Below are positions 1-7,055 of a DNA stretch of 61,273 nt, in pieces (within the stretch, counting starts at the first letter, position 1; the number at the start of each line of letters is the position of its first letter). The stretch comes from Actinomycetota bacterium (lineage in GTDB: Bacteria; Actinomycetota; UBA4738; HRBIN12). The notes below the pieces were generated by a model. It ran no database searches. It was not told where the DNA came from and saw nothing but the letters and a program-made list of their open reading frames with translations. A program made the position numbers and the translations under genes. The DNA is taken from contig DASSCU010000062.1 in NCBI GenBank assembly GCA_035697485.1, positions 1 through 61,273 of the forward strand, read 5' to 3'.

Positions 1-243
1 GGGAGCGTCGAGCCAGGCGGGGAGCGTCAGCACCGCACGTTTGTACGCCTGCAGGAACAGGCCGGACTTCGACCCGAAGTGCTGGAAGATCGAACCCTTG
101 GCGATGCCGAGCTCGATGGCGATGTCCTCGACCTTGGCGCCCTGGTAGCCGTGCTCGGCGAACTGGCGCATCGCCGATCCCACGATGCGGTCGCGCTTGA
201 CCTGCGTCTTGGCGTTCCTTGGCGATCTCGGCTCGGCGACCAT
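1..243 (-). CDS. TetR-family transcriptional regulator, N-terminal part (runs off window start)
   Basis: The minus strand is open from an ATG at 243 to the window edge (81 codons). The peptide has the TetR_N layout: a basic N-terminus, then helices ending in AKGSIFQHFGSKSGLF at about residues 47-62, the recognition-helix motif of the family. The ligand-binding C-terminal domain lies outside the window, so the effector cannot be guessed. A GAGGAG-like ribosome site precedes the ATG, and a TAGCCT hexamer at 274-279 could be its -10. It is divergent from the corrinoid operon, and two identical-core dyads lie in the shared 234-nt intergenic region. It is therefore inferred to regulate that operon and itself. 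Confidence 0.85.
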   Translation of the reverse strand, partial: MVAEPRSPRNAKTQVKRDRIVGSAMRQFAEHGYQGAKVEDIAIELGIAKGSIFQHFGSKSGLFLQAYKRAVLTLPAWLDAP

Positions 244-273: not shown

Positions 274-279
274 AGGCTA
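274..279 (-). promoter_or_regulatory. Candidate -10 element of the TetR gene
   Basis: TAGCCT on the minus strand, 30 nt before the TetR start. It matches the TAGnnT hexamer seen before many genes of this window. The first dyad (301-313) begins just upstream of it, over the expected -35 position, which would suit autorepression. Confidence 0.4.
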
Positions 280-300
280 CGGAGCCGGTGGGCTCTTGAC

Positions 301-313
301 TGACCCTCGGTCA
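301..313. promoter_or_regulatory. Candidate TetR operator O1
   Basis: Inverted repeat TGACC-CTC-GGTCA with perfect 5-bp arms; the dyad extends imperfectly outwards (GACTGACC against GGTCACTC). It lies over the expected -35 region of the TetR gene. The same core recurs at 392-404. Binding by the adjacent TetR protein is inferred from position and from the usual form of operators in this family. Confidence 0.6.
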
Positions 314-391
314 CTCGAAGACCTCCCGAGGGGCTCCCAACGACGTCCGCTCGCTGGCATCATCGGGTGCTGACGGCCCTGGCGAAGGTGC

Positions 392-404
392 TGACCTCAG
401 GTCA
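392..404. promoter_or_regulatory. Candidate TetR operator O2
   Basis: Inverted repeat TGACC-TCA-GGTCA, perfect in the 5-bp arms and extending to GTGCTGACC against GGTCACCAC with one mismatch. It lies 73 nt before the first gene of the corrinoid operon, where repressor binding would block transcription. It has the same arms and spacer length as O1, 91 bp away. Confidence 0.6.
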
Positions 405-477: not shown

Positions 478-1131
478 ATGCAGGAAGACCTCGAGGTCCT
501 GAAACGGGCGCTGATCGCCGCCGACATGGATCTCGGCGTCGCCGCGGCCCGGCGGCTCGTGGATTCGGGCGCCGACCCGACGTGGATCCTCGAGCAGGGC
601 ATGGCCGTGGCCATGTTCGACCTCGGGGAGATGTGGAAGCGGGGCGAGGTGTTCCTGCCCGAGGTCGTCGCGAGCGCCGAGGTGTTCAAGCGCTGCAACG
701 CGATCGTCGAGCCGGCCCTGCTGGCGATGCGCGACGCGAACACCGAGGCGAGCGCGATCGTCGTGCTCGCGACCGTCAAGGGCGACCTGCACGACTTGGG
801 GAAGAACATGGTGGGTGCGATGCTTCGCACCAGCGGCTTCGACGTGCACGACATCGGCAAGGACGTGAGCGCGGACCGCATCGTGGAGGTCGTGCGCGAG
901 CTGCGACCCCAGATCGTCGGGCTCTCGGCGCTGCTGACCACCACGGTCCCGTATCAGCAGAGGGTCATCGAGAAGCTGGAGGCCGAGGGGTTGAGGAACC
1001 GGGTGAAGGTCATGGTCGGGGGCGCGCCGGTCACGCCCGAATGGGCGGAGCAGATCGGCGCCGACGGCTACGCGAACAACGCCCCCGAGGCGGTCGAGAT
1101 CGCGAAGAAGCTCGTGGGGGCGGCCCAATGA
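478..1131 (+). CDS. Methyltransferase-cognate corrinoid (B12-binding) protein
   Basis: A 217-residue protein of the MtbC/MtaC/MttC type, which carries the methyl group on cobalamin between two methyltransferases. An N-terminal helical cap (about residues 1-85) precedes a Rossmann-like B12-binding domain containing the base-off signature DLHDLG; H105 is the expected lower-axial cobalt ligand. VGLSALLTTT and the GGAPVTPEWA loop fit the rest of the fold. The ATG at 478 was chosen because GGAAGGA lies just upstream and the family length fits; an upstream in-frame start would add 37 unrelated residues. Its stop overlaps the next ATG (ATGA), so the two are translationally coupled. The family is clear; the methyl donor is not. 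Confidence 0.93.
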   Translation: MQEDLEVLKRALIAADMDLGVAAARRLVDSGADPTWILEQGMAVAMFDLGEMWKRGEVFLPEVVASAEVFKRCNAIVEPALLAMRDANTEASAIVVLATVKGDLHDLGKNMVGAMLRTSGFDVHDIGKDVSADRIVEVVRELRPQIVGLSALLTTTVPYQQRVIEKLEAEGLRNRVKVMVGGAPVTPEWAEQIGADGYANNAPEAVEIAKKLVGAAQ

Positions 1132-2039
1132 GCCGCGCGGCGAGCGACGTCGCGACGACGATCCTCAGCGGTCCGGGTGGCGAGATCGCGATCGGCGACC
1201 AGCACCCCTTCCGCATCATCGGCGAGCGCATCAACCCGACGGGTCGCACGCAGCTCACCGAGGAGCTGAAGGTGATGGATATGACCACGGTGCAGCGCGA
1301 CGCGGTCGCGCAGGTCGAGGCCGGCGCCGCTGTGCTGGACCTGAACGCCGGCATCCCCGGGTTCGACGAGCCGGCGATGCTCTCGGCGATGGTGAAGACC
1401 GTGCACGAGGTTGTCGACGTGCCGCTGTGCATCGACTCCTCGACGCCCGAGGCTCTGGAGGCCGCGGTGCCGCTCGCTCAGGGCAGGGTCCTGATCAACT
1501 CCGTGACGGCCGAGGACCACTCGCTCGAGCGCTTGCTGCCGCTCGTCGCGAGGTTCGGCGCGGCGGTGATCGGTATGGCCAACGACGAGGAAGGCATCTC
1601 GATGGACCCGCAGGTGCGCCTCGCGGCCGCGCGCAAGATCGTGGAGGCGGCCGCCGACCACGGCATCGGCCACGAGGACGTGATCATCGATCCGCTCACG
1701 ATGCCGATCGGCGCGGCGCCCGACGCCGCGACATCGATGTACGAGACGGTGAAGCTGATCCGCTCCGAGCTGCGCGTGAACGTGAGCTGCGGCGCCTCGA
1801 ACATCTCCTTCGGCATGCCCGACCGCCGCGGCATCGACTCGGCGTTCCTCACGATGTCGATCGTGACCGGCATGAACACCGCGATCACGAACCCATTGCA
1901 CATCGAGTCGCGCAAGGCGATCCTCGCCGCCGACCTGCTGCTCGGGCGCGACGAGTACGGGGCGAACTGGATCGCGCTGCACCGCGCCGAGCTCGCGGCA
2001 GCCGAGGCGGCGAACGTTGGGGGCGAGCCGACCGCATGA
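1128..2039 (+). CDS. Methyltetrahydrofolate:corrinoid methyltransferase (pterin-binding family)
   Basis: A 303-residue TIM-barrel protein of the AcsE/MtvB/MtgA/MetH pterin-binding class. Visible family features are GERINPTGR near the N-terminus, DLNAG after the second strand, CIDSS in the middle and NVSCGASNISFG towards the C-terminus, which builds the pterin pocket. It should move a methyl group between the corrinoid protein and tetrahydrofolate, in the cytoplasm. In demethylation the flow is towards methyl-H4folate, feeding one-carbon metabolism. The ATG at 1128 overlaps the upstream stop by 4 nt, and the stop overlaps the next ATG the same way. The length fits this group of stand-alone enzymes. 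Confidence 0.92.
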   Translation: MSRAASDVATTILSGPGGEIAIGDQHPFRIIGERINPTGRTQLTEELKVMDMTTVQRDAVAQVEAGAAVLDLNAGIPGFDEPAMLSAMVKTVHEVVDVPLCIDSSTPEALEAAVPLAQGRVLINSVTAEDHSLERLLPLVARFGAAVIGMANDEEGISMDPQVRLAAARKIVEAAADHGIGHEDVIIDPLTMPIGAAPDAATSMYETVKLIRSELRVNVSCGASNISFGMPDRRGIDSAFLTMSIVTGMNTAITNPLHIESRKAILAADLLLGRDEYGANWIALHRAELAAAEAANVGGEPTA

Positions 2040-3952
2040 CCAAGAAGGTCGAGGTCACCTACCAGCCGAGCGGTAAGACCGTCCGGGTGCCCGAGGGCAC
2101 GACGCTGTTCAACGCGGCGCACTGGGCGGGGCTGCCGATCGAGTCCACGTGCGGCGGCCGGGGCACGTGCGGCAAGTGCGGGGTCATGGTGCTGTCCGGG
2201 CACATCGAGCGCACGCTCGCCGACTACCGCCACCTGAGCGATCGGCTCGATGATGGGTGGCGTCTGTCGTGCCAGGCCGAGATCATCGAGGACACCGAGT
2301 GCGAGGTGCCCCGCCTGATGAAGATGCCCAAGGCGGCGACGATGGGCGTCGGCAGGTTCGTGCTGCTCGAGCCCAACGTGGTCAAGCTCTACTTGGAGCT
2401 GCCGCCACCGTCCCTCGAGGACCACCGATCCCATCTCGCCCGCGTGCTCGACGCGGTCGAGGAGGCCGGGTACAACCGAAACTACGACTGGGAGGTCATG
2501 CCGAGGATCGCGCGGGCGTTCCACGCGACTTCGAACGTCACCGCGACGTTGGTTGGGGAGTACCTCGTCGACGTGGAGGCGGGCGACACCACCGACCGCA
2601 TGTTCGGAGCGTCGTTCGACATCGGCACGACGACCTGTGTCTGCACGCTGGTCGACCTTCGCAACGGCGCGACGGTCGGTGTGGCGAGCACGGTCAACCA
2701 TCAGGCGCCCTTCGGCGCCGACGTGATCGCCCGCATGGCCAAGGCGATGCACGGCGAGGGGAACGTCGTCCAACTGCGCGACGCCGCGATCTCGACCGTG
2801 AACGAGCTGCTCGGCCGCGCCCGGGACGAAGCCGGCGTGGCCCAGCACCAGGTCTACGAGGCAGTCGTCGCGGGCAACGCGACCATGATGCATCTGCTCT
2901 GCGGCGTGAACCCCGAGTCGCTCGCGCTCGCGCCGTACGTGGCGACGTTCACCGAGCCGCAGGACCTGCGCGCGGACCAGGCGGGGTTCGACATGCACCC
3001 GCTCGGCTGGGTGGCGTTGTTCCCGTCGATCGGCGCCTACGTGGGCGCCGACATCGTGGCCGATATCGTCGCGACCGGTCTCGTGCGGGACCCGGAGACC
3101 CGGCTGCTCGTCGATGTGGGCACGAACGGCGAGATTGCCTGCGGCAGCGAGGAGCGCAGCGTCGCCACCGCCGCGCCCGCCGGCCCGGCGTTCGAGGGCG
3201 GCGAGATCGTGCACGGCATGCGCGCCACGGACGGCGCGATCGAGGGGGTCATGCTCGCGAGCGGCCGGGTCGAGCTGCAGGTGATCGGCGGCGACGACGC
3301 CGAACCGCGCGGCATCTGCGGGTCGGGGCTGATCGACGTCGTGGCACAGCTGCGTCTCGCGGGGCTGCTCGATGACGGCGGCAAGATGATGTCGCGGGAG
3401 GAGGCCGAGGACGCCGGCCACCCGCTCGCCGACCGTCTCGTGATGCGCGACGACGTGAAGGCGTTCCAGCTACACGGCGACGTCGTGCTGACCCAGCAGG
3501 ACGTGCGCGCCCTGCAGTTCGCCAAAGGTGCGATCTCTACCGGCATCGAGACGGCGATGCGCGCGCTCGGGCTCGAGTCGTCCGACCTCGACGCGGTGAT
3601 GCTGGCGGGGTCGTTCGGCTCGTACATCAACCCGCAGAGCGCACGGGTGATCGGGCTCGTGCCGCCCGTGCCGGTCCAGCGCATCAAGGCGGTCGGCAAC
3701 ACGGCGAGTGAGGGCGCGAAGATGGCGCTCATGTCGTTCCGCGAACGCGAGGTCGCATGGGAGATCCCCGGCATCGTGGAGTACATCGAGCTCTCGGGTG
3801 AGGAAGACTTCAACGACCGGTTCATCGGGAACCTCGGGTTCCCGCCGATCGAGGACCTGCACGCGGCGCAGGCGGCGAACGAGGCCGCGATCGTGGCGAG
3901 GGCCGAGGCGAGGGCATCGGCGAGCGTCGGCTCGGAGGACGCGGGGTCGTGA
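2036..3952 (+). CDS. Corrinoid reductive activator (2Fe-2S ferredoxin domain plus ASKHA/DUF4445 domain, RACo/RamA-like)
   Basis: A 638-residue protein. The N-terminal 2Fe-2S domain has C39, C45 and C48 in STCGGRGTCGKCG and the fourth cysteine near residue 79 in WRLSCQ. A linker follows, then an actin-like ATPase (ASKHA) domain: ASFDIGTTT near residue 200, LLVDVGTNGEI in the middle, and LAGSFGSYINPQSA near the end, typical of DUF4445. These proteins use ATP to drive reduction of inactive Co(II) corrinoid back to Co(I). Stop-start overlaps on both sides bind it to the operon. The whole family architecture is present, with no sign of damage. Confidence 0.92.
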   Translation: MTKKVEVTYQPSGKTVRVPEGTTLFNAAHWAGLPIESTCGGRGTCGKCGVMVLSGHIERTLADYRHLSDRLDDGWRLSCQAEIIEDTECEVPRLMKMPKAATMGVGRFVLLEPNVVKLYLELPPPSLEDHRSHLARVLDAVEEAGYNRNYDWEVMPRIARAFHATSNVTATLVGEYLVDVEAGDTTDRMFGASFDIGTTTCVCTLVDLRNGATVGVASTVNHQAPFGADVIARMAKAMHGEGNVVQLRDAAISTVNELLGRARDEAGVAQHQVYEAVVAGNATMMHLLCGVNPESLALAPYVATFTEPQDLRADQAGFDMHPLGWVALFPSIGAYVGADIVADIVATGLVRDPETRLLVDVGTNGEIACGSEERSVATAAPAGPAFEGGEIVHGMRATDGAIEGVMLASGRVELQVIGGDDAEPRGICGSGLIDVVAQLRLAGLLDDGGKMMSREEAEDAGHPLADRLVMRDDVKAFQLHGDVVLTQQDVRALQFAKGAISTGIETAMRALGLESSDLDAVMLAGSFGSYINPQSARVIGLVPPVPVQRIKAVGNTASEGAKMALMSFREREVAWEIPGIVEYIELSGEEDFNDRFIGNLGFPPIEDLHAAQAANEAAIVARAEARASASVGSEDAGS

Positions 3953-4563
3953 CCGCGTCCGGTGCCCGCGTGGCCCTGCTCGCGTGCGGCGCGATCGCGA
4001 TCGACGCGAAGACGCTCGTCGACCGACACGGGTGGGACGCGGACGTGCACGGCATCTCGAGCGACCTGCACATGACCCCGCTCGAGATCGCCCCGGCGGT
4101 CGAGGAGAAGCTGAAGGCGCTGCTGCCCAGGTACGAGCGCGTGATCGTCGCCTACGGCGACTGCGGCACCGGCGGCAGGCTCGACGAGGCGCTGTCGCGC
4201 TACCCGGCGGTTCGGCCCGCGGGTGTGCACTGCTTCCAGTGGTACGCGGGAGAGCTCTACCGGCGGTTCGAGACCGACATCGGCATCTACTTCCTGACCG
4301 ACTGGCTCGTGACGAACTGGGAGCGGGCGGTGATCAAGGGCCTCGGCCTCGACCGCTTCCCCTGGCTGCACGAGACGTACTTCGGCAACCTGAGCCGGGT
4401 GCTGTTCGTGCGCCAGCACCCCGATCCCGAGCGGGAGGCGAAGGCGCGCGAGATCGCCGGGTACATGCAGCTGCCGCTCGAGATCCACGACCTCGGGATC
4501 GAGCCCCTCGAGGAGCTGCTCGTGCCCTTGATGGATGAAGCGCTCGAGCAGCCGAAGGCGTAG
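3949..4563 (+). CDS. DUF1638 family protein
   Basis: A 204-residue protein starting at a GTG that overlaps the activator stop (GTGA). It contains YGDCGTGGRLDE, a cysteine-bearing glycine-rich motif typical of DUF1638, and further invariant-looking residues in HCFQWYAGELYRRF and FLTDWLVTNW. No transmembrane segment or signal peptide is visible. DUF1638 genes are known from gene neighbourhoods of corrinoid methyltransferases, but no biochemical role is established to my knowledge. Its place between the activator and MttB, with tight spacing, suggests a step in corrinoid or methyl handling. That role is inference. Confidence 0.88.
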   Translation: MTASGARVALLACGAIAIDAKTLVDRHGWDADVHGISSDLHMTPLEIAPAVEEKLKALLPRYERVIVAYGDCGTGGRLDEALSRYPAVRPAGVHCFQWYAGELYRRFETDIGIYFLTDWLVTNWERAVIKGLGLDRFPWLHETYFGNLSRVLFVRQHPDPEREAKAREIAGYMQLPLEIHDLGIEPLEELLVPLMDEALEQPKA

Positions 4564-4584
4564 CGCAGATGAAGGAGACCGACG

Positions 4585-6051
4585 ATGTTCGAGCCTGACC
4601 GGGCGCCCCGCATCCTCAGCGAGGAGCAGGAGGAGACGGTCCACGAGACCGCGATGCGCATCCTCGAGGAGATCGGAACCGACGTGAAGCACGGGCCGGC
4701 GCGGGCACTGCTCGCCGATGCAGGGCTGAAGATCGAGGACGAGCGGGTCTACTGGGATCGCGGCTTCGTGATGGAACACGTCGCGAAGGCGCCGTCGTCG
4801 TTCCGGCTGCGCGGGCGCAACCCGGCGCGGTCGCTCACCGTGGGGGCGGGTGGGGACCCGGATGCGGTGCCCGTGTGGATGAACGTCGGCGGGCCGCCGT
4901 TCGCCAGCGACCTCGACGAAGGGCGCCGGAGCGGACGCATCCAAGACCACGACAGGTTCATCAAGCTGACGCAGGCGACCGACGTGCTGAACTGCGCGCA
5001 GACCGGCGCTGCCGAGGCGACCGACCTCCAGATGGAGGTCCGGCACATGGACATGGAGTACTCCACGATCCGGTACTCGGACAAGCCGTACACGACCTAC
5101 GGCACGAGCGGTCCGCGGGCTCGTGACGGCATCCGGATGGCGGAGATCGTGCACGGGGGGCGTGAGGCGATCGAGGTGGAGCCGGCGCTGATGGGCATCG
5201 TGAACCCGAACTCGCCGCTGATATGGGACTTCCGTATGACCGACGCTCTGATCGCATGGGCCGAGGCGAAGCAGCCCATCGTCCTGACCCCGTTCCTGTT
5301 GGCGGGGGCGACGAGCGCGGTCAGCGTGAGCGGGGGGCTGACCCAACAGGTCGCCGAGGCGCTCAGCGGCGTCGCCCTCGCTCAGCTCGTGCGCGAGGGG
5401 GTGCCGTGCCTGTACGGGTCGTTCTTCACGGTGACCGACATGCGCACCGGCTCGCCGGCGTTCGGCACGCCCGAGTCGGTGTGGGGCATCCTCGCCGGCG
5501 CGCAGCTGGCACGGCGATACGGCCTGCCGTTCCGGGGTGGGGGAGGCCTGGCGTCCTCGCCCGCGGTCGACGCGCAGGCCGCCGCCGAGACCCAGATGAT
5601 GCTGTGGGCGACGAACCTCGCGGCGACCGACGTCGTGCTCCATGCCGCCGGATGGCTCGAGGGCGGCCTCACGGCGTCGTTCGAGAAGTTCGCGCTCGAC
5701 GTGGAGCTCCTGCGCCAGTTCCGGGTGCAGGCGAGCGGCATCGGCTTCAGCGACGAGGAGCTCGCGTTCGAGGCCTTGCGGGAGACCGGTCCCGGCGGGT
5801 TGTTCCTGTCCTCCCCGCACACACGCGCCCACTTCAAGGAGTGGCTCTACATGTCGCCGCTGTTCCAGACGCCCGACTTCGCGACCTGGGAGGCCATGGG
5901 CTCGGAAACCACCGAGGTGGCGGCGAATCGCGCGTGGAAGCAGCTGCTCGAGACCTACGAGGATCCCGGCCTCGACACCGCGATCGACGAGGAGCTCCTG
6001 GCATACATGGCGAGTCGCCGCGACGCACCGGATCTCTACGTCGAGGACTGA
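4585..6051 (+). CDS. Trimethylamine methyltransferase (MttB) family protein, non-pyrrolysine type
   Basis: A 488-residue TIM-barrel protein of the MttB superfamily (COG5598). Members transfer a methyl group from a quaternary or tertiary amine to the cognate corrinoid protein. The frame is uninterrupted: there is no internal amber codon, so this is the group without pyrrolysine that includes glycine-betaine methyltransferase MtgB. The region where the Pyl enzymes carry residue O reads FRGGGGLASSPAVDAQA. AAGG-like strand motifs, EVRHMDMEYS and the C-terminal SPLFQTPDF also fit. AAGGAG lies 8 nt before the ATG. It closes the operon 21 nt after DUF1638. The substrate (glycine betaine, carnitine, proline betaine or other) cannot be told from sequence. 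Confidence 0.9.
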   Translation: MFEPDRAPRILSEEQEETVHETAMRILEEIGTDVKHGPARALLADAGLKIEDERVYWDRGFVMEHVAKAPSSFRLRGRNPARSLTVGAGGDPDAVPVWMNVGGPPFASDLDEGRRSGRIQDHDRFIKLTQATDVLNCAQTGAAEATDLQMEVRHMDMEYSTIRYSDKPYTTYGTSGPRARDGIRMAEIVHGGREAIEVEPALMGIVNPNSPLIWDFRMTDALIAWAEAKQPIVLTPFLLAGATSAVSVSGGLTQQVAEALSGVALAQLVREGVPCLYGSFFTVTDMRTGSPAFGTPESVWGILAGAQLARRYGLPFRGGGGLASSPAVDAQAAAETQMMLWATNLAATDVVLHAAGWLEGGLTASFEKFALDVELLRQFRVQASGIGFSDEELAFEALRETGPGGLFLSSPHTRAHFKEWLYMSPLFQTPDFATWEAMGSETTEVAANRAWKQLLETYEDPGLDTAIDEELLAYMASRRDAPDLYVED

Positions 6052-6072: not shown

Positions 6073-6966
6073 TCAGGCCGCGTCGGCCAAGACCCGCTCG
6101 AGGATCTCGGCGGCCTCGATGATGTCCTCGCCCAGGTAGGTGCCGGGCACGTCTTTGCGGGCGGCGGCGGGGCCGAACGCCGCCCCCGCGTAGAACGCGT
6201 GCACGCCGGCCAGGGCGTCGGCCGCCACGATCGCCTCGACCGCCGGCCGGCGGGTGACGCTGCGCTGGCTCGTCACGACCGCGCCGCGCGCCTCGGCCGC
6301 CCGCACCGCAGCGACGAGCGAGCTCACGGGCGTGAGCGGGCCGAGCGTCCGGATCGACCAGCCACGGCGTGCGAGCACGACGCCGAACGCCTCCAGCCCG
6401 ATCGTGTGCAGATCCTTCGGGCCGCACGCGAGCACGAGCGGGAACGGCCGGAACGGAGCGGGGGCCATCGCCGACTGGCGAGCGAGCCAGACGCGGACGG
6501 CCTCGGTGGCGAGGTGTTCGTGGGCGGTGTCGCAGACGCCGGCCTTCCACCGGCTGCCCATCTCGCGCATCGCGGGCAGCGCGACATCGCGCATCGTCTC
6601 CTCGACGCCCATCGACTCCGCGCCGCTCATCAGCACCTCGCGGAGCTTGGCGGGGTCGAGCCGCATCGACGCCTCGAGGAACCGATCGAGCAGCTCGGCC
6701 CGGGGCCGGTCCTCGGTCGCGTACCGTCGCACGATGTCGACGGCCTCGCTCGCGGAATGGCCCCGGGTGATCTCGTCGCGCATCATGCGGAGCTGGTCGA
6801 TCTCGTCCACGGAGTAGCGACGGTGCTTCCCCTGGGTCCGAGAGGGCACGGGGAACCCGTACCGCCGCTCCCAGGAGCGGATCGTCGGCACGGGGATGCC
6901 GAGCAGCGACGAGACGGCGGCGATCGTCATCTGCGTCGGGGAAGCGGAGGGTTGCATCGATTGCAT
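6073..6966 (-). CDS. MerR-family regulator with cobalamin-binding domain (CarH/LitR type)
   Basis: A 297-residue protein. An N-terminal MerR winged helix (PVPTIRSWERRYGFPVPSR, about residues 21-39) is followed by a four-helix B12-binding cap and a Rossmann B12 domain. The cap contains tryptophan, nine residues, then Glu-His (WKAGVCDTAHEH), the signature of adenosylcobalamin light sensors. The Rossmann domain has DLHTIG, giving the lower axial histidine. Known family members bind DNA as AdoCbl tetramers in the dark and release it in light. The start at 6966 was chosen because TACCCT ends 6 nt before it, giving a leaderless mRNA; an alternative ATG lies at 6957. It is divergent from the ABC exporter and convergent with mttB. 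Confidence 0.9.
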   Translation of the reverse strand: MQSMQPSASPTQMTIAAVSSLLGIPVPTIRSWERRYGFPVPSRTQGKHRRYSVDEIDQLRMMRDEITRGHSASEAVDIVRRYATEDRPRAELLDRFLEASMRLDPAKLREVLMSGAESMGVEETMRDVALPAMREMGSRWKAGVCDTAHEHLATEAVRVWLARQSAMAPAPFRPFPLVLACGPKDLHTIGLEAFGVVLARRGWSIRTLGPLTPVSSLVAAVRAAEARGAVVTSQRSVTRRPAVEAIVAADALAGVHAFYAGAAFGPAAARKDVPGTYLGEDIIEAAEILERVLADAA

Positions 6967-6972
6967 ATCCCC

Positions 6973-7020
6973 AGGGTAGGCATGAGCAGGCGATATGGTC
7001 AATCTGATGCTGCATAGATT
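6973..7020 (-). promoter_or_regulatory. Promoter of the CarH-like gene with overlapping dyad
   Basis: On the minus strand TTGACC (7002-6997) and TACCCT (6978-6973) are 18 bp apart and precede the start by 6 nt. Directly upstream, touching the -35, is the dyad AATCTgATGC-t-GCATAGATT (7001-7020). Its ATGC/GCAT core also occurs in the dyad at 7032-7049. This suggests autoregulation by the same protein. Confidence 0.5.
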
Positions 7021-7025
7021 CTGGC

Positions 7026-7055
7026 TTGAAACCATGCATCAACGCATGGGATAGT
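7026..7055 (+). promoter_or_regulatory. Exporter promoter whose 18-bp spacer is a perfect dyad (MerR-type operator)
   Basis: TTGAAA (7026-7031) and GATAGT (7050-7055) are separated by exactly 18 bp, all of it an inverted repeat: CCATGC, six bases, GCATGG (7032-7049). An operator inside an over-long promoter spacer is the classic MerR-family arrangement, and a MerR-B12 regulator gene is divergent from here. An effect of that regulator on this promoter is inferred. Confidence 0.6.

Follow-up and report, generated by a model that had tools for sequence, protein, structure and literature searches.

The question raised by this locus is which protein acts at two dyads lying between a divergent tetR gene and a corrinoid methyltransferase operon, and whether that protein serves the operon alone. 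The window (the whole 61,273-nucleotide stretch of actinomycete DNA analyzed here) was originally predicted to hold twin TGACC-N3-GGTCA operators, and these are present: TGACCCTCGGTCA at 301–313 and TGACCTCAGGTCA at 392–404 are its only matches to that pattern, for which the chance expectation is 0.09 per window and which reached two occurrences in 1 of 100 shuffles. Both fall inside the 234-bp gap (244–477) that separates the start of tetR (minus strand, position 243) from the ATG of the operon at 478. The two dyads, to which no strand is assigned and which we designate predicted operators O1 and O2, begin 91 bp apart and appear as conserved blocks in an alignment with a same-genus genome. 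Their flanks are partly symmetric, as had been noted, with an identical C/C mismatch adjoining each core. The perfect 5-bp arms of the original prediction hold in the window but do not describe the site in general, which on sequence grounds is better written TGAC-N5-GTCA with Y and R inside.

The genome from which the window comes (64 contigs, 3.41 Mb) contains TGACC-N3-GGTCA five times and the relaxed form TGACY-N3-RGTCA six times; reversed-pattern controls in the same genome occur 0 times and once, respectively. Four of the six relaxed sites fall into two pairs, with a start-to-start distance of exactly 91 bp in both (301 and 392 in the window, 33041 and 33132 on contig C53), a distribution that is not the scatter expected of chance matches. 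The two remaining single sites, one within rsmD (contig C21) and one close to ispH (contig C63), were set aside as background. A further sequence that recurs in genomes of the family, TGACTGGGGGTCA, proved in two checked loci (L088, L100 1467–1543) to lie in tRNA-Pro(GGG) and is likewise background in motif searches of this kind.

The operon (478–6051, all genes on the plus strand) begins behind a ribosome-binding site, GGAAGGA at 464–470, read from the sequence. Its first gene (478–1131) encodes a corrinoid protein of the MtgC/MtbC kind, with B12-binding domains and matches to the MtbC and MtgC models at 1e-57 to 1e-52; since it scores below the curated MtgC cut-offs (188.6 of 310 bits for NF047995 and 178.1 of 370 bits for NF047996), we call it only MtgC-like. 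There follow an MtgD-like methyltetrahydrofolate:corrinoid methyltransferase (1128–2039; Pterin_bind; NF005719 at 311 bits, above cut-off), a RACo/RamA-type corrinoid reductive activase (2036–3952; RACo_C_ter, Raco_middle and Fer2), a DUF1638 protein (3949–4563; PF07796, 81 bits), and an MtgB-like member of the MttB superfamily (4585–6051; PF06253, 525 bits). The MtgB-like gene is an open frame with zero in-frame stops, hence without pyrrolysine, and the nearest solved relatives of its product are 4yyc, 9yce (glycine betaine methyltransferase) and 2qne. According to PMC12478193, aerobic glycine betaine demethylation in Ruegeria pomeroyi employs MtgB, MtgC, MtgD, RamA and DUF1638, and the predicted gene set of the window matches that demethylase member for member: an MttB-family MtgB, a corrinoid MtgC, MtgD, a RamA-type activase and DUF1638. 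Unlike the Ruegeria genes, those of the window form one compact operon, belong to an actinomycete, adjoin a TetR gene and have glycine betaine as a putative substrate; term searches of the same paper found no such TetR regulator of the MtgBCD genes.

The tetR gene is broken by the end of the contig, so that the window holds only its 5′ part (1–243, minus strand), encoding residues 1–81 of 223. Residues 35–223 are encoded on contig C19 (L036), which shares 141 identical bases with the window, and joining the two gives the full 223-residue protein, TetR-A. It carries a TetR_N domain (PF00440, 56 bits against a cut-off of 24), and a same-genus orthologue, 87% identical, is predicted to adopt an all-helical two-domain fold (mean pLDDT 84) whose best matches are TetR regulators, with TM1030 at the top. 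The closest solved chain to TetR-A itself matches at 1.7e-11, and the protein has no close characterized relative.

If the dyads are operators of the operon, they should be expected before orthologous operons, and they are found there. MtgC orthologues 79–81% identical to that of the window occur in G001, G002, G008, G009 and G012, and a dyad pair 89–92 bp apart is present at all six testable corrinoid operons, the window's included; the operon of G006 was left out of this count because its contig starts within mtgC. G012 has one mismatch in its second dyad, and G002 carries four dyads at this position. In a second operon type, MttB-II, the pair occurs in G005, and in G011 it carries one mismatch. 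G012 has a single dyad there, at a greater distance upstream; sites with one mismatch lie 87–88 bp upstream in G002 and in the window's own genome. The copy in the latter (L324 5162–7338, contig C25) is a second MttB/corrinoid operon with its one-mismatch dyad 88 bp upstream, and at the G005 locus (L109 1696–7277) a pair 90 bp apart precedes an operon of three MttB-superfamily genes together with those for a corrinoid protein and DUF1638.

The same site extends well beyond corrinoid genes. On C53 the pair is flanked on one side by gcvT (GCV_T domains) and a phosphodiesterase-type gene and on the other by two FAD amine oxidases, which in the window's own genome are followed by a ProVWX/OpuAC glycine betaine-type transporter. 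Of the 16 testable genomes of the family, 15 (all but G010) have a dyad 59–105 bp ahead of their gcvT orthologue, whereas the 10 orthologues examined from other families of the same order have none. Dyads also stand before a homocysteine methyltransferase gene and before tandem gcvT genes that neighbor a Rieske oxygenase and methylene-THF reductase; in the window's own genome the Rieske gene and its tandem gcvT have one-mismatch sites only, which occur in background at about 0.05 per kb. Among TetR-A orthologues 65–87% identical, dyads lie upstream of the gene in 7 of 10; one genus, represented by three genomes, has tetR-A without its own dyad, though its gcvT has one. In two genera (G005 and G011) the gene divergent from tetR-A encodes a Rieske protein whose relatives include carnitine oxygenase and stachydrine demethylase (GbcA/carnitine-oxygenase-like), and the dyad pair lies in the tetR promoter region between the two genes. 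The proposal of a dedicated TetR switch for B12-dependent methyl transfer thus survives only in its first half: the dyads fit a TetR switch, but they are not private to corrinoid genes, since in the same family the paired site also stands before genes for Rieske, GcvT, amine-oxidase and homocysteine-methyltransferase proteins. Very probably, then, TetR-A governs a wider regulon for quaternary-amine demethylation.

A search with the TetR-A alignment among named genomes recovered about 70 loci in Acidobacteriota, at 50–62% identity. An exact dyad is present in 55 of 56 nonredundant upstream regions, where 0.25 would be expected, and all 55 have a second dyad with at most one mismatch, the two being 98–101 bp apart in 43 of the 55. 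Of about 71 loci, a few actinomycete ones included in the counts, 65 have a Rieske oxygenase in the neighborhood of tetR, 46 an amine oxidase and 36 a homocysteine methyltransferase, the same gene types that carry the dyad in actinomycetes. The family-wide conservation and these independent homologues with paired sites together make a TetR protein the very probable regulator. A search for the corrinoid protein in 20 of these acidobacteria found 16 loci with an MtgC-like gene, most of them adjoining an MttB-like one; none has the dyad, and TetR and its sites are associated there with the oxygen-dependent genes. This indicates that inclusion of corrinoid genes is particular to this actinomycete family. 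With a regulon made up mostly of other demethylases, and with acidobacterial corrinoid loci lacking the site, we reject a corrinoid-specific switch. One locus with an acidobacterial-type tetR and paired dyads (L237) comes from a metagenome-assembled genome labelled Gammaproteobacteria, and reflects either a mislabelled bin or horizontal transfer.

The position of the dyads relative to the promoters bears on how they might act. A putative tetR −10 element, TAGCCT (276–281, minus strand), is conserved with the same-genus genome and places the −35 slot at about 299–304, overlapping O1, in agreement with the original prediction that one dyad covers the tetR −35. For the operon, the putative −10 is CATCAT (358–363, plus strand), conserved with G001 and situated between the operators, 34 bp before O2; other actinomycete mtgC and gcvT promoters have a TA hexamer within the pair, 32–34 bp before the downstream dyad, of which CATCAT is the form in the window's genus. 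The −10 and −35 of the operon fit the consensus poorly, and a standard promoter scan of 200–520 found nothing. In 43 of 52 acidobacterial cases the dyad nearer to tetR starts 5 bp downstream of a TATNNT box; TTGAAA lies at −33, and this is the position of a repressor site. The promoter of the divergent gene shows TANNNT some 30 bp ahead of the distal dyad.

Computation establishes the dyads themselves, how they pair, how far apart they lie, how well they are conserved and which genes follow them; from this we infer that the window dyads are operators of the adjoining regulator, each TGAC-N5-GTCA dyad accepting one TetR-A dimer. O1 would overlap the −35 of tetR and sit on the upstream side of the operon promoter, and O2 would lie just past the likely start site of the operon, so that occupation of both would turn off the corrinoid demethylase operon while tetR regulates itself. 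TetR-A would be released by an inducer, which is probably glycine betaine, another methylated amine or a product of their breakdown. Through the same paired operator elsewhere in the genome, TetR-A would also act on gcvT and the amine oxidases, and through weaker one-mismatch sites on the Rieske oxygenase with its tandem gcvT and on the second MttB operon. Taken as a whole, this is a model in which we place considerable confidence.

The two operators may also act together. The spacer is 75–79 bp long in the mtgC, gcvT and MttB-II promoters, although comparison of these spacers reveals no sequence similarity to one another, and across the data set the spacings fall into classes of about 78, 90, 100 and 111 bp, near half-integral helical turns (R 0.66–0.77, p 6e-4 or less, for periods of 10.5 and 11, in a calculation that ignores common descent). 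The O3 and O1 operators of the lac operon are 92 bp apart. There, as in the window, two dyads about 90 bp apart surround the regulated promoter, and the predicted sites studied here likewise enclose it at near-constant spacing. Lac employs the LacI tetramer and the window a TetR-family protein, for which a tetramer or loop would be conjectural. Retention of the spacing while the spacer sequence changed, together with the resemblance to lac O3–O1, suggests cooperative or looped repression.

The alternative to cooperation is that each dyad works on its own at one of the two divergent promoters, the spacing following from promoter geometry. TetR-family proteins usually bind as a dimer only, and in Acidobacteriota both divergent promoters do lie between the dyads, with one dyad beside each. 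Such a reading accounts less readily for G008 and G009, in which the upstream neighbor of the corrinoid operon is co-directional and the pair is nonetheless 90 and 92 bp apart, or for a spacer length held constant between unrelated spacer sequences; we regard independent action as a serious possibility that falls just short of probable.

A different objection concerns the identity of the regulator: some other protein may bind the dyads, TetR-A having a site merely because it belongs to the regulon. Four genomes estimated to be 91–98% complete have perfect dyads at regulon genes but no TetR-A. Three of them (G002, G003 and G007) possess a paralogue, TetR-B, and the fourth (G006, 93% complete) has neither protein. 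These cases mean either that TetR-B or another protein reads the sites or that TetR-A is missing from some of the assemblies. Upstream dyads are found at none of nine TetR-B genes, and the recognition helix of TetR-B reads GTVFLDF against GSIFQHF in TetR-A; we nevertheless retain TetR-B as a candidate user of the dyad because it is the only TetR relative in three site-bearing genomes. The four genomes, the differing helix of TetR-B, the genus whose tetR-A lacks a dyad and the poor operon −10 and −35 all weigh against the proposed TetR-A model. On the other side, across the two phyla almost all the loci found for TetR-A homologues have the site beside them, no other regulator gene recurs near the sites at the loci viewed, and G010, which has neither TetR-A nor TetR-B, is the genome that also lacks the gcvT site. 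We therefore judge a regulator other than TetR-A improbable. In the window's own genome TetR-B (L037 6249–6908, contig C15) has as neighbors ProC, P5C dehydrogenase and an aminotransferase, to which relatives add proline dehydrogenase, and it is likely a regulator of proline catabolism. That the dyads are chance palindromes of GC-rich DNA has almost nothing left to recommend it, for although five perfect sites in 3.41 Mb are close to a rough base-composition estimate of about 3, and the rsmD and ispH sites resemble background, two 91-bp pairs among six sites are not expected by chance, and comparisons across the genome, the family and the phyla, in which the dyad is conserved between species and phyla, rule it out.

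Repression by TetR proteins is well known; what is new is the unusual paired-site design and the regulon. AcnR, FadR and TetR are autoregulated, divergent repressors of this family, and TetR-A resembles them in its TetR_N domain, its predicted fold and the palindromic dyads beside its own gene. It differs in having two well-separated dyads at constant spacing and nonhomologous demethylases as predicted targets. Methylated-amine metabolism, the predicted province of TetR-A, is also controlled by BetI, a TetR protein whose targets are the choline-to-betaine genes, and by GbdR, an AraC-type activator of betaine and choline genes. TetR-A has other predicted targets than BetI, and its 81-residue part scores only 34 bits against the BetI model, for which the cut-off is 201. 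The original prediction knew of no TetR control of such an operon in Actinomycetota, and we found none in the open-access literature searched.

Uncultured bacteria of both phyla thereby gain a predicted regulator of quaternary-amine demethylation, for which we found none described, together with a precisely defined site that can be searched for. Rieske (oxygen-dependent) and corrinoid demethylases come under a single predicted switch, which opens its ligand and the choice between these routes to direct test. For a TetR protein, a conserved lac-like arrangement of paired sites would be unusual. Tentatively, and as a possibility rather than a probability, we speculate that Actinomycetota and Acidobacteriota have in common a hitherto undescribed TetR subfamily, that its members bridge two operators about 7.5, 8.5 or 9.5 helical turns apart around the promoter and so repress the demethylation of methylated amines, and that in one actinomycete family it captured corrinoid operons into an oxygen-dependent demethylase regulon. 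Convergent with the corrinoid operon of the window is a MerR-type regulator gene (6073–7035, minus strand) whose product has B12-binding domains and is CarH-like below cut-off; it could possibly provide a second, B12- or light-linked control of that operon.
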